From assembly GCA_028820845.1 (NCBI GenBank), contig JAPPII010000101.1:89591-153590 (forward strand): DNA of 64,000 bases, read 5' to 3'. Of this stretch, positions 656 to 6,583 are shown piece by piece. The notes beneath the pieces are model-generated. The model had not been told where the DNA came from and searched no databases. It worked only from the letters and a program-made list of their open reading frames with translations. Position 1 is the first letter of the stretch, and every line of letters begins with the position of its first letter. The translations under genes and the position numbers were made by a program. Source of the stretch: Candidatus Poribacteria bacterium. GTDB lineage: Bacteria > Poribacteria > WGA-4E > WGA-3G.

Positions 656-2155
656 TCAATCGCTGTCTGGGTAGGAAGCGAAATGTGCTTGCGGCGTTCC
701 ATTTCGATAATCGCCATCACAAGCACTGAGCATCCAACCACTCAACCGAGCAACGATGTCAGGATAATCCGCCGAAACATCGTTTTCCTCGCGGTAGTCG
801 TCGTTGAGTTGGTATAATTGGAAAGTGTCCGTGCTATTAATATATCGTAATTTCCAACCATCTGACGTTACCAACGCTGGCCCCAGTCGAGAGGCATATA
901 TAATCCACTCGTGGGTTTCTTGAGCCTCAGGTTGTTCAAACAGGGTCGGTAAGAACGATATACCGTCTTTTCCTTCCGGTAACTCGACTCCTATAAGGTC
1001 AGCGAAGGTCGGCATCAGGTCGTAGTTCGCAAGGATATGGTTTGATACGCTATCAGGGGCAATTGTTCCGGGGAACCGGACGATGTAAGGGATACGTGTG
1101 CCACCTTCCCAACTCGAAAACTTTAAACCACCCATACCGTCGTTTCCATTGAACACATCGCCACCCGTCTCCGAATAGAATTTTGTCGTGATCTCATCAA
1201 ACGGCTCACCGTCCAAATTCTGGCGCCGACCGGAGGTGCGTCCTTCCTGCAAATAATACACTTCGTGGCCGTTATCAGAGCAGAGGGCAATCATCGTGCG
1301 ATCGTCAATTCCGAGTCGTTCGAGTTCGTCCAAGATGATCCCAACAGTCTCATCGAGTTTTAGGATCATGGAGGCGTATTCTTTTTCATAGGTTGTTAAT
1401 TCTGGAACGTTTTTCACCGTTGGATGGATGTCAGGGATGGCAATCGGTCCGTGTGGTAGTTGAGACGGATGATAGAGAAAGAAGGGCTTGTCTTGGTGGG
1501 TGCGAAGGAACTCGATGATTTTTTCGTTGAAAATGTCTTGAGAATATACCGCTTTCCCCTCTCGGTTCCTGCGGCGCGCCATATTTTCTTCGGACTCCCA
1601 ATTCGGATTTACCGCGCAGTCGGCGTGTGTGTTTCCCCGAATGTATGTTGGTTGTCCGTTTTCAAAAAGGAAAGGCGGATAGAAACCGTGGCAACGCTGG
1701 TGATCATAGTAGCCGTAGTGATACTGCCAACCGTGCCGCCGGATGCGCTCCCCAGTTGTGGCAAAACCCCATTCAAGTTTTCCAATCTGTCCTGTGGTGT
1801 AACCAGCATGTTCCGCAATTTGTGCCAAGAAGATGTCATCGGGACCTGCTTGGAGTCCGGTGGTATGAAGCAATTCCGTAACTTGGTCCAAAGTCATCTC
1901 GCCAGCACTCAACCTGTGGTAAAGTCCGCCTTGGGTATAGGTCCAGGTCCCCTCGTGGCAATCGTGAAGACCTGTTAGCATACTCGCTCGCGATGGCGCA
2001 CAAAACGCGCAACCGTAGGCGTGGTTGAATTTCATTCCCTCATTTGCAAGACGATCAATATTCGGTGTCTCGAAATGTTGTTGACCATAGCAGCTGAGCA
2101 TACCGCGTCCAAGATCGTCTGCGAAGATGAGAATGACATTCGGGTTATCCGTCAT
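656..2155 (-). CDS. Sulfatase (type I, formylglycine-dependent)
   Basis: A 499-aa alkaline-phosphatase-superfamily sulfatase. The N-terminus carries the metal-binding FADDLG block (D13-D14). The modification motif is intact: C52-A-P-S-R56 within CAPSRASMLTG, where Cys is converted to formylglycine by a maturation enzyme. A second metal block is SDNGHE. The length fits arylsulfatases. I see no signal peptide, so cytoplasmic action is likely unless the true start is upstream. Sulfatases in sponge-associated and marine bacteria usually desulfate sulfated glycans, but the substrate cannot be read from sequence. The gene lies 42 nt downstream of the aldehyde dehydrogenase, in the same direction. 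No clear Shine-Dalgarno precedes the ATG. Confidence 0.93.
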   Translation of the reverse strand: MTDNPNVILIFADDLGRGMLSCYGQQHFETPNIDRLANEGMKFNHAYGCAFCAPSRASMLTGLHDCHEGTWTYTQGGLYHRLSAGEMTLDQVTELLHTTGLQAGPDDIFLAQIAEHAGYTTGQIGKLEWGFATTGERIRRHGWQYHYGYYDHQRCHGFYPPFLFENGQPTYIRGNTHADCAVNPNWESEENMARRRNREGKAVYSQDIFNEKIIEFLRTHQDKPFFLYHPSQLPHGPIAIPDIHPTVKNVPELTTYEKEYASMILKLDETVGIILDELERLGIDDRTMIALCSDNGHEVYYLQEGRTSGRRQNLDGEPFDEITTKFYSETGGDVFNGNDGMGGLKFSSWEGGTRIPYIVRFPGTIAPDSVSNHILANYDLMPTFADLIGVELPEGKDGISFLPTLFEQPEAQETHEWIIYASRLGPALVTSDGWKLRYINSTDTFQLYQLNDDYREENDVSADYPDIVARLSGWMLSACDGDYRNGTPQAHFASYPDSD

Positions 2156-2197
2156 AACTGTGATACTAAAGATTTGAAAACTTAAGTTTTTCAGATG

Positions 2198-3604
2198 TTA
2201 CTCAAGTTGAAATGCGCGTTGTCTATAGAGGTGCTCAAACAAATTCCCTTCATGCGGACTGTCCCAAGAGATCTGATTCGTCGGGACAGCACCCAAATTA
2301 AGTCGATCAATGAGCGGTGTAGCCACGAGATCTCGTCTTAATGCTGCGTCTTCCGTAATCGCCGTAGCAACCAGCGTTGCCCCCATAGATTCGACTAACT
2401 CTGTCGATGACACTTCAACAACACTCACAAACGGAAACGGGAATTCCGTATTCGCCAACGGATGTTCCGCATCCTCACACCAGATAACGGTCGGTCTGAG
2501 GAAGGTACACCCATCTAATTCAACAACGCGATCACCGGTTGTTAATTCCGTTGCCCCGGGTTCTTTGAGATGACGGTCGATCAACGACGAGATACCGTAG
2601 GCAGCTTTCGGATTCGCCCACGCTGCGATGCCTGCATCTGGATCATCCAGCGGTTTCGGTTCAATGCGTGCCAAGCGTTCTGCCAACGCTTCGGCAATTT
2701 CGCGTCCGTGTGCGGTTACCCACACACCAGAGGCGTTAATACAGGACCTGCCCCCGTTCTTGGTGACCGATTCCACAATGAGATCAAGATACTGCTCCCA
2801 ATTGTTCTGTTTGCTTTCGTGGATGACGATCTTGCTGCGTCCCGGTCCGTGAATCTCAACACGAGGTGTGTTCACCCACGGGGCGACAGTGGCTCCACCG
2901 CCGAAAAGCATAGAACGTCCGCATCGAGACAGGATTTCGTTGGCACCGGTATAATCGGTAGGATAGAAACTGAACCCCCCTGCGGGAGCACCTGCCGCGA
3001 TAAACGCTTGTGCGATACGATACGGAGTCCACGGCTCCTCGCGCCCTGGTTTTAGGACAAGCGGGACTTTCAACGGAATCGCAGGCACCCACAACGAATG
3101 CACACCTGGCGAATTGCTCGGTAACACAGCACCGAGTGAGTCTGTTTCGCAGACGTAACTCAACGTCCGTCCGTTTTGAGTGCCCCAACCTATATCAAGG
3201 ACTCGTAGATCCAAGCCGCGGGTGAGTCCGTCTAAGACCGTATCTATGTTTTCCAAAACCCCTTGAATCTTGAGCAGATTCTGTTGGCAGAGGGCTTCAG
3301 GTAAGCCCGTTGTCCCGGATACTTGTTGGATATAATCTGTCGGGGATTGTTCAGTACCGTCAAGTGGCAGCGTCGCCGTTGTGAAAAGGCGCGCTGCCGC
3401 CTTGCAAATAGAGATCAATTCAGCAACCGAACGTTGCCCAAGTGCCTCTTTTTGGAGACCGATGTCAACGAGGTCCTTCGCTATCAATCCACGGTTGGCT
3501 TGGCTCACCTCGACTAAAGGTTCGCCTGTTTTAATATGTGTCACGCTAACGGTGTTCAGACTTCTGTAAGAACGTCCGGCGCGTAAAATTGGGATATGTA
3601 TCAT
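2198..3604 (-). CDS. Aldehyde dehydrogenase-superfamily protein
   Basis: A 468-aa ALDH-fold oxidoreductase. The cofactor-binding block PSNSPG (N165) and K185 in VLKPGREEP precede the LFGGG turn near 234. The catalytic Cys is C288 in NGGRSCINASG. Family chemistry is NAD(P)-dependent oxidation of aldehydes or, in acyl reductases, reduction of acyl thioesters to aldehydes. The length (about 470) fits either a soluble ALDH or a LuxC-type acyl reductase. It starts 1 nt after the small propeller gene ends and shows no Shine-Dalgarno of its own, so it is probably translationally coupled. The co-directional adenylating enzyme at 5510-6583 makes an activation-reduction pair plausible, which is inference. 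Confidence 0.85.
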   Translation of the reverse strand: MIHIPILRAGRSYRSLNTVSVTHIKTGEPLVEVSQANRGLIAKDLVDIGLQKEALGQRSVAELISICKAAARLFTTATLPLDGTEQSPTDYIQQVSGTTGLPEALCQQNLLKIQGVLENIDTVLDGLTRGLDLRVLDIGWGTQNGRTLSYVCETDSLGAVLPSNSPGVHSLWVPAIPLKVPLVLKPGREEPWTPYRIAQAFIAAGAPAGGFSFYPTDYTGANEILSRCGRSMLFGGGATVAPWVNTPRVEIHGPGRSKIVIHESKQNNWEQYLDLIVESVTKNGGRSCINASGVWVTAHGREIAEALAERLARIEPKPLDDPDAGIAAWANPKAAYGISSLIDRHLKEPGATELTTGDRVVELDGCTFLRPTVIWCEDAEHPLANTEFPFPFVSVVEVSSTELVESMGATLVATAITEDAALRRDLVATPLIDRLNLGAVPTNQISWDSPHEGNLFEHLYRQRAFQLE

Positions 3605-3605
3605 T

Positions 3606-4301
3606 TTACCATGTAATTTTCGCTACCCATCCAGACGAGGCATCGCAGTAGAGGAAATCGTCACCGTAGATGGATAACCCATGCGGTTCGGGACAATCTT
3701 CGGGAACCTCAATCACATCAAGCGGCGTGCCGTCATTAAGATCAAGTTTGACGATAACCCTATCAGAAGTATGCGTTGACCAAAGTCCATCTTCAACGCG
3801 AATCATGCCGTGTCCGCGTCCGTGAGGCAACGGGAGCGTTTTTTGGACAGACCAATCCGAAATTCTCATCTTATGCGTGACCTGATTCTTAAGCGTTTGG
3901 ACCCATAAGTGTCCTTCATCGTAGTGGTCGTATTCGATCCCGTGTGTTCCGCCGCCATCGGGTATTGGATAGCGTCCGAGGGTTTCACCGGTTTCAGGAT
4001 CGACTTTGAAAACCTCGCCTGTCTCAGCATCTGTATCCCGGACGGGACGCCAACGTGCGCCAGATCCATTCGCGGCTAACCAGAGCGCGCCATCACCGGA
4101 CGTCATTCCGCTCGTGTTGGAAGATTCGCTCGGAATGTCGCGGATGAGTTTCGGCACGGTATAATCCTCGTCCGCTGTGATTTCAACCAAGGCGACCCTA
4201 TCGGTAATCTGATCGACGATCCACAAACCTTCTTCTGTAACTTGTAAACCGTTGGGCACCGAATAGGGAGATCGGAAAACTTTCTCAATTTTCGTTATCA
4301 T
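3606..4301 (-). CDS. Small beta-propeller protein (SMP-30/streptogramin-lyase-like)
   Basis: About 231 aa. I place the start at ATG 4299-4301 because AAGGAG lies 7-8 nt upstream; a TTG two codons earlier is the alternative. Repeated blade-like segments (TEEGLWIVDQIT, GDGALWLAANGSG, YDEGHLWVQTL, VEDGLWSTHTS) match NHL/Vgb-type propellers, which bind or cleave small molecules. There is no signal peptide. The upstream gene's stop at 4304-4306 nearly touches the start, so the two are coupled. The substrate is not inferable. In this lineage such propellers occur next to sulfatase and PhyH genes. Confidence 0.75.
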   Translation of the reverse strand: MITKIEKVFRSPYSVPNGLQVTEEGLWIVDQITDRVALVEITADEDYTVPKLIRDIPSESSNTSGMTSGDGALWLAANGSGARWRPVRDTDAETGEVFKVDPETGETLGRYPIPDGGGTHGIEYDHYDEGHLWVQTLKNQVTHKMRISDWSVQKTLPLPHGRGHGMIRVEDGLWSTHTSDRVIVKLDLNDGTPLDVIEVPEDCPEPHGLSIYGDDFLYCDASSGWVAKITW

Positions 4302-4303
4302 AT

Positions 4304-5479
4304 TCAAACTCCTTTTTCGTGTTTATCTACTTGTGCTAAAGAGGTCTTTAGCCACTTTAAATATTCGGATTTCCGTTCTTTCGTGATTGGAAAGGATTTG
4401 ATAAACTCGTTTGTCGGTAGATGTTGAATAAATGCCAGTTCCGGTGTCAGAATCAGGGAATCAACTGGATAAACAAAGTGTTCTTGGAGTTTCATAGCGA
4501 GTGTAGCCGCGGCGGTCCCTTTCGCGCTATCTTGAAGTTCCGGCAATTCTCTAAGTAAAACCCATGTATTGACAAACTTTGTGTTGAGCAGCTTAATGAC
4601 TTTCGATGTGGAGAGCGGACCCGCTCTCAAAATTTTACCGCTCCCTCAGCACGATTCATCATCAAGTGCACCAAATAAAACTAACGCATGGATGGGACGA
4701 TTTGTTGCTTTCGCGAGTTCAATGGCATCTTCAATCGGGACCCACTCAATTTTAGCAAACTTGTAGAACACAGTCATTAGTTTTTTGCGGGCTGCTTCAG
4801 CAGGAATGGCTGTTTCCCATGCTATCTCACGTACAGGTACGCTTGATAAAGTGGAGAGTTCCATGCGCGGAATAAAAGCCATGTCTGCTGTCCTGAAAGC
4901 ATTAACATCTACATTGCTATTGCGTGATGGAAGAAACAGAGAAAACTTAATAACTGCTCCTTCCTTTCGATTCAGTAACAGGCACCCTGCAAACTGCGCT
5001 GGCAGCAAACGGATACCCGACGCGTCCAACACGAACTGCGCATGAATTCGGAAGACAATCTCGGCGTAATTGGGCGAAATCGCCCGTAAACATGCTTTTA
5101 ACCCTTCAGCTCTCTGTGTTCTGTGGGAAAAGATGGTGATCTCCGTTGTTGCACCCGAGTGAAACTGACAGAGGAAAGGAAGAATCCTTTTCGAGTCAAG
5201 TTCCCAAATATCCCCTACATTAACAGTCGAAGGCGGTAGAAAAACTTGAAAGTCGGTTTGGTTGTAGTTCTTCAACGGGTGCACAGGTTTCGGATTGAAA
5301 AGTTCTAACGCTTGTTTCCACTCCATATTCACTGATTCTGGCAACCGTGCTTTGAGCCTATCGAACTGTTCTTGTGTGGGCTGATGCAAGTTGTACGTGG
5401 AATCCACAATTGGTTCCCAGTATGCTTGTACTTGCACACTCGCTGTACTGCTAAGAACATTGCTAAAGTCCGCTATCAC
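4304..5479 (-). CDS. Predicted selenoprotein with C-terminal thioredoxin-like domain (in-frame TGA = Sec278)
   Basis: The frame runs 277 codons from GTG 5477-5479 to a TGA at 4646-4648, then continues in the same frame for 113 more codons to a true stop at 4304. Read through, the product is 391 aa. Around the TGA the protein reads ALDDESC-U-GSGKILRAGPL. It is preceded by a segment (IEDAIELAKATNRPIHALVLF) and followed by one (VIKLLNTKFVNTWVLLRELP) that match the beta-alpha-beta core of thioredoxin-like proteins, so U278 sits at the redox-active position next to C277. A 7-bp hairpin with loop GGTC starts 17 nt after the TGA. The downstream part has no credible start of its own. The N-terminal about 220 residues are unassigned. 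Alternative: a nonsense-disrupted gene. Confidence 0.75.
4611..4628 (-). promoter_or_regulatory. Candidate bacterial SECIS hairpin
   Basis: On the minus strand the sequence is GAGAGCG-GGTC-CGCTCTC: a perfect 7-bp stem with a four-base loop starting with G. The stem begins 17 nt and the loop 24 nt after the TGA. Known bacterial SECIS elements have the apical loop roughly 16-37 nt after UGA with a G in its first two bases; the Escherichia coli fdhF element also presents a GGUC loop. An alternative pairing uses GGGAGCGG directly after the TGA against the same 3' arm. Confidence 0.6.
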
Positions 5480-5509
5480 CTTATTTTCTCTCCTGTTTGT
5501 TAGGACGAC

Positions 5510-6583
5510 TTAGTAAACACCAACAACAACACTCTCTTGAAGTTCTGTGAGCAAACGAAGATTTTCAACGCCGTCCCAAGGGTATTCCGGAATCGGTTCG
5601 GCGCGTTCGGCTTCGTCACGCTCCAAAAAACGGGGCATGAAAAATTCTTTCGTTAGCGTTGTGAGTATGACGCGTCCGGTTTCGCCGTAATCGACAGTTT
5701 CCTCTGGGTTTTCGGGGTTGACCAATTCAATGACAGCGCGCGGTTGCGGCGGATAGTAGATAATAGCATAGTTATCTGCCGGATCAAACGGTTTACAAGT
5801 GGCTAATCCCATGAGGGTATTCCCATAAGTCGGAATAAAGTCAATACCGGGAACAAGCTCCTCGCGAGCAAAGCGATGGAACTGGGCATCCATCTCCGTG
5901 CCGCCACAAAAAATACCTTTGATATCCACCTTTGGCAAGGCAATTTTTTCGCACAGTGCCTCCAGTAGTTTTGGTGTTGTGAAGAGACATTGAACGTTTT
6001 CGTGGGCACGCAACACGTTGAGTGCCTGCGATATGACATGGTTTTTATACGCGTCCAGTTCCTCATTTTTTCCGTAACGCACGAGTTGGTTCACCCAACG
6101 TGGATCGAGATCTACATGGAAACAGATACCTCCGCGATGCTGTGCCAGATGCTCAACAGCGAGTCGTAAACGCCGCGGACCCGTCGGACCCAACATCAGC
6201 CAATCGCTACCGGGTGGAAAGCCTTCGTCAGACAGCGTTTTACTGAACAGTTCATAGTCAATATGAAAATCGCGAATGCTAATCCGAGACTTTGGGACAC
6301 CTGTCGAGCCACCCGTTTCAAAGACGTAAATAGGTTCGTTGGCGTAAGCCTTCGGCACCCAGCGACGCACAGGTCCCCCGCGGAGCCATTCGTCTTGGAA
6401 ATGCCCAAGACACTTGAGGTCGGCATAGCTGCCAATCTCTTTTCTCGGATTAAAGTCGAGGTTTTCTGCGAATTCCAGCCAGAAGGGAGATCCCGTCTTT
6501 GGACTGAAGTGCCATTTGACAATTTCCCGGACGTGTGCATCAAGTGCTTTTTGGGCTTCAGTAATTTTTCGGGTAAGGTTCAT
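5510..6583 (-). CDS. Adenylate-forming enzyme, PaaK/LuxE-like
   Basis: A 357-aa adenylating enzyme of the phenylacetate-CoA ligase/acyl-protein synthetase type. The phosphate-binding motif is [11 protein letters not shown] (G91-G95). It is followed by TYGNTL near 255 (core A5) and [12 protein letters not shown] with FLERDEAE near 330 (core A7/A8). At 357 aa it is shorter than typical ligases and ends close to the hinge, as LuxE-type synthetases do. The expected role is activation of a carboxylic acid with ATP and transfer to a thiol. Its ATG overlaps the stop of the upstream propeller gene (ATGA), so the two are translationally coupled. The substrate is unknown. Confidence 0.8.

Follow-up and report, generated by a model that had tools for sequence, protein, structure and literature searches.

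A Poribacterial gene with an in-frame TGA as a probable bacterial selenoprotein of the selenoprotein N type

The DNA analysed here (the window) is a 64,000-nucleotide stretch of a Candidatus Poribacteria contig from a 5.69-Mb assembly. One of its minus-strand genes contains an in-frame TGA followed by a long open segment, which raises the question of whether this codon ends translation or specifies selenocysteine (Sec), and what kind of protein the gene would then encode. Sequence comparison indicates that the internal UGA is almost certainly read as Sec, with no experiment on selenium incorporation, and that the gene encodes a bacterial selenoprotein of the SELENON (selenoprotein N) type. We assign the latter reading a probability of about 0.93; it depends on a human sequence that is not database-verified and is not supported by protein, 75Se or activity data.

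The reading frame and its internal TGA

The SELENON-like gene, assigned by homology, occupies positions 4304..5479 on the minus strand and would encode 391 residues. It starts with a GTG at 5479, preceded by a ribosome-binding site (AGGAGA, 5494-5489, minus strand). The in-frame TGA at 4648-4646 corresponds to codon 278, in the context D-E-S-C-U-G-S-G-K, and places the putative Sec278 directly after C277. It is followed by 113 open codons and a terminal TGA at 4306-4304. No credible start is found 3' of the in-frame TGA, the sole near in-frame candidate being a TTG at 4630 that lacks an evident ribosome-binding site. A putative bacterial SECIS hairpin lies at 4611..4628 (minus strand), where a 7-bp stem, GAGAGCG/CGCTCTC (4628-4622 / 4617-4611), is closed by a GGTC loop (4621-4618). 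The stem is separated from the TGA by a 17-nt spacer (4645-4629) and covers codons 6-12 after it. A first-pass annotation, made from the sequence alone, had described this frame, the TGA, the C-U-G-S-G-K junction, the spacer, the hairpin and the absence of an independent downstream start, and every one of these details was reproduced exactly.

Taken alone, the TGA and hairpin form a weak signal, because the folding energy of the window hairpin is no better than that of shuffled sequences (z -0.15, single sequence) and other long frames of the window also continue for at least 100 codons past a stop. An Rfam search of the window's first 12 kb gave no match. The significance of the TGA, and the case for a SECIS element, therefore come from comparison among homologues.

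Conservation of the Sec codon and the hairpin

The Sec column is readable in 192 distinct sequence contexts from 131 loci. TGA is present at 188 of these sites and is kept in homologues down to ~33% protein identity; the remaining four encode Gly (2 GGA, 1 GGC) or Ser (1 TCA). A Cys codon occurs at none of the 192 distinct homologous sites, so the usual Sec/Cys pairing is not seen, and the expectation that homologues would carry Cys or Sec at position 278 is met by Sec alone. The four homologues without TGA (L002, L124, L128 and L080) all retain the SECIS hairpin, consistent with recent loss of Sec, and their substitutions indicate that some copies can do without Sec. Within the window genome, two paralogues share the Sec site, one with TGA (on C18) and one with Gly (on C10).

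The hairpin is conserved beyond what its coding sequence demands. A stem of at least 6 bp follows the TGA in 98.9% of 175 distinct sequences, as opposed to 25.8% in shuffles in which synonymous codons were drawn from family usage, and the mean folding energies are -10.6 and -7.0 kcal/mol, respectively. Arg codons in the stem are AGG or AGA in 175/175 cases, compared with 48/294 (16%) elsewhere in the family. In 26 diverse sequences, 94.2% of alignment cells pair, and two pairs have changed on both sides in a compensatory manner; the covariation score was reached by none of 500 shuffles and also exceeds those of all slid registers. We took as the SECIS criterion a small apical loop that contains G and lies ~16-37 nt from the UGA. 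This is met, with a loop that begins 23-24 nt after the TGA and is 4 nt long and G-containing in most sequences.

Decoding of the UGA codon

The simplest alternative is that translation ends at the TGA as at any other stop, the 113 codons beyond it being either what is left of a decayed sequence or open by chance. TGA does serve as a normal stop in this genome and the single-sequence hairpin is not unusually stable, but this account is hardly tenable given how the downstream segment has evolved. In the 11 closest orthologues examined, dN/dS is 0.08-0.19 after the TGA, lower than the 0.20-0.36 before it, and these values indicate purifying selection on the downstream codons. The TGA lies inside the thioredoxin domain and falls in the same column in ~190 conserved homologues. 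All 11 orthologues contain the in-frame TGA, and the stop that ends the frame varies among them, some having TGA and some another stop codon; together with the low downstream dN/dS, this pattern makes a pseudogene or a sequencing error very unlikely. A base error at 4646-4648, which the first-pass annotation had left possible, is excluded, since orthologues in many independent assemblies carry the TGA.

A second alternative is a general reassignment of UGA to an ordinary amino acid, Trp or Gly. Both readings occur in some bacteria, and three homologues have Gly at this position. We consider such a reassignment practically ruled out for this genome: selA and selB, both long conserved genes, have no internal TGA, which indicates that the code is not generally altered, and of the window's 36 long frames, 8 end in TGA. 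The hairpin would also be left unexplained, as would the dedicated machinery. A tRNA-Sec gene (selC, 78 bits, anticodon TCA) adjoins selB (351 bits) in the window genome, and selA (593 bits) and selD (363 bits) are present as well, so that the full selABCD set is in place; a lack of selB/selC would have undermined the original proposal. The SelD is of the Sec type, its gene having an in-frame TGA of its own at the catalytic position (KCAGUASK, L024:1531-1533), and would be a second selenoprotein of this genome. Across the phylum, a full selA is missing from 8 of 65 family-carrying genomes, some of them incomplete assemblies, and selA is also found in 15 of 20 Poribacteria genomes without the family, so co-occurrence of the two is not discriminating. 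It is also conceivable that the UGA acts as a regulated stop, yielding the 277-residue N-terminal domain at low selenium and the full protein when selenium is plentiful, both being functional. Sec codons are inherently leaky, and the structural model confidently predicts that the N-terminal domain folds as a unit. We nevertheless regard a functional short form as unlikely, because the homologues that have lost Sec retain the whole protein rather than the short form. The preferred reading thus remains one in which SelB and tRNA-Sec would insert Sec at the UGA at 4646-4648 under the direction of the hairpin 17 nt beyond it.

Relationship to selenoprotein N

The human SELENON query was not taken from a database, so the match, though strong, lacks database verification. 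The query comprises 590 residues, of which 127 and 462 are Sec. Published human numbering agrees with this query for Sec462, Arg466, codon 315 (c.943) and total length (PMC12839072). The query matches the window protein with 143.5 bits and ~32% identity, and matches the family profiles with 185-202 bits over human residues ~193-548. Nearly all of the members closest to it are short ones that, like the window gene, have no extra C-terminal domain. The window protein contains the SCUG redox motif with Sec, as do animal SELENON proteins (PMC8584023, PMC12839072).

Could the protein instead be a DsbH/UAS-class thioredoxin selenoprotein, its likeness to SELENON having arisen by convergence and not by descent? 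Foldseek matches are confined to the thioredoxin domain and do not extend to the whole protein, and the human sequence is not database-verified. Against convergence, both domains match SELENON and stand in the same order, the N-terminal one with 81-93 bits and the thioredoxin one with ~100 bits, and His293 and Gly315 of the human query, together with Arg469, fall on columns that are invariant in 46 bacterial members. We therefore consider convergence very improbable. Membership of the Thioredox_DsbH family itself (PF03190) was rejected, the score of 12.4 bits being well below the curated cut-off of 27 and reflecting fold likeness only.

No EF-hand, the calcium-sensing hallmark of SELENON, is matched by Pfam in any of the 46 members (E 0.01), and no signal peptide or membrane helix is found at the start of the window protein, so the ER-membrane, lumen-facing criterion of SELENON is not met. 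No Pfam, NCBIfam or PADLOC model covers the protein, and PDB sequence searches returned nothing meaningful. The N-terminal domain that the first-pass annotation had called unassigned does exist, but it is not a random fusion partner, since the whole protein matches eukaryotic selenoprotein N. By the same token, the designation as a new selenoprotein candidate holds for its selenoprotein part; the family is known in animals and is new, as far as we found, only in bacteria.

Predicted structure and proposed chemistry

The AlphaFold model of the window protein (pLDDT 90.9, pTM 0.88) consists of two domains. Residues 1-225 (4805..5479, minus strand) form the predicted counterpart of the SELENON N-terminal luminal domain, for which Foldseek finds no relative among solved structures. 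Residues 226-391 (4307..4804, minus strand) adopt a predicted thioredoxin-like fold of the DsbH/UAS/ERp19 type, as judged from AlphaFold and Foldseek. The C277-Sec278 pair lies just before a helix of this domain, in keeping with the redox centre originally proposed there.

In an alignment with a plain thioredoxin, Sec278 takes the position of the first Cys in the WCGYC motif, and the second Cys is matched by an invariant Gly. From this we infer that Sec278 is likely to take the place of the attacking cysteine of the thioredoxin fold, with Cys277 as the probable resolving partner. The selenol/thiol pair of the active site would alternate with a vicinal Se-S bond during turnover, by analogy with animal SELENON (SCUG motif) and thioredoxin reductase (GCUG motif), for which such a cycle has been proposed. 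Because it lacks a signal peptide and an EF-hand, we expect the protein to be cytosolic, to work without calcium gating and to reduce oxidised thiols. Its function, inferred in the absence of activity data, is most likely that of a calcium-independent thiol/selenol oxidoreductase. The aldehyde dehydrogenase encoded two genes downstream is a plausible client, for which there are no data, and protection of the dehydrogenase's cysteine is a guess.

Gene neighbourhood, paralogues and distribution

Positions 656-6583 of the window form a tightly spaced minus-strand cluster with small gaps and an operon-like order. An AMP-dependent ligase-like gene (5510..6583) lies directly upstream of the SELENON-like gene, and a virginiamycin-B-lyase-like (Vgb) β-propeller gene (3606..4301) begins 2 nt after its stop. 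These are followed by genes for an aldehyde dehydrogenase superfamily member (2198..3604) and, at the end of the cluster, a sulfatase (656..2155), all on the minus strand. The order ligase-like, SELENON-like, Vgb-like, aldehyde dehydrogenase, sulfatase is kept in most of 14 orthologous loci.

The family is present in 65 of 85 Poribacteria genomes. Among seven genomes examined in detail, the six assembled in one to three contigs contain 3, ~5, 8, 9, 12 and ~15 TGA-containing genes, often in tandem arrays. Many paralogues are of a long form with an extra C-terminal β-domain, for which the Foldseek matches were dismissed as generic β-sandwiches. A hydrophobic, signal-peptide-like N-terminus was noted by a crude hydrophobicity test in ~38 of 186 paralogues (L083, L082, L059, L058 and others), and part of the family may, on this prediction, be exported. 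ECF-type sigma factors (Sigma70_r2, r4) with one membrane helix and the C-terminal β-domain common to the long-form SELENON paralogues were also observed, at loci L093, L128, L127, L060, L002 and others, and in the window genome at C10:77592-77999 and C86:2030-2491. Of the 24 whose locus could be checked, 23 have a SELENON gene on the same strand no more than 2.5 kb away.

All homologous loci with an organism name belong to Candidatus Poribacteria, including one at 97% identity. A contig scan gave only Poribacteria among the matches listed (80 of 149 relatives), which does not exclude other phyla. In 302 genomes outside the phylum, the sole match was an ordinary thioredoxin with WCGYC (genome G380), useful only for placing Sec, and no relative was found on viral contigs or plasmids.

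Significance and comparison with known systems

SELENON mutations cause a congenital human myopathy, and because the protein is a membrane glycoprotein that contains Sec, its chemistry is difficult to investigate. PDB sequence searches found no solved structure of a relative. A soluble, compact bacterial homologue with a simple SECIS of its own would open the way to structure and enzymology. Positions of patient mutations coincide with residues that are invariant in the bacterial proteins, among them His293 and Arg469. Gly315, the site of the patient mutation c.943G>A (PMC12839072), is another.

Given that the family occurs in a sponge-symbiont phylum, the origin of the animal selenoprotein becomes a question open to testing. 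We tentatively suggest a two-part proposal, which we consider less likely than not: that animal selenoprotein N and the Poribacterial family descend from a gene that passed between animals and sponge symbionts, the eukaryotic 3' UTR system taking over from the bacterial SECIS inside the gene or the reverse, and that the Poribacterial family has grown into an extensive selenium-dependent redox system linked to membrane-bound ECF sigma factors, with which it has a C-terminal domain in common. A 2026 review records SEPN1 orthologues in vertebrates and some invertebrates (PMC12839072). Word searches through the full text of a 2026 inventory, which covers 119 families and subfamilies of prokaryotic selenoproteins, gave no SELENON entry, and none stands in the part of its table that was examined (PMC13188914). 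Our literature search, which did not extend to subscription papers, preprints or protein-database annotations, returned no report of a bacterial SELENON or of Poribacteria selenocysteine.

Thioredoxin reductases of the GCUG type also contain a vicinal Cys-Sec pair followed by Gly; these enzymes are not homologous to the SELENON-like family, and their pair is located at a flexible C-terminus, whereas here it lies inside a thioredoxin fold. Residues 226-391 share their fold with the DsbH (PF03190), UAS-domain and ERp19 thioredoxins but differ in having an invariant Gly for the second Cys of CxxC, a partner Cys before Sec and an added N-terminal domain. The closest resemblance in overall design is to animal SELENON (SEPN1), with the same two-domain order, ~32% identity over 340-360 residues, an SCUGSG site and Sec in the same place. 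Unlike the animal protein, the bacterial family has no EF-hand, membrane anchor or ER signal, and has undergone a large paralogue expansion in which many copies carry the additional C-terminal β-domain. The animal gene relies on a eukaryotic SECIS in the 3' UTR, whereas the putative bacterial element lies within the coding region; in this respect, with an in-frame UGA and a downstream hairpin at SECIS spacing, the family resembles known prokaryotic selenoproteins.
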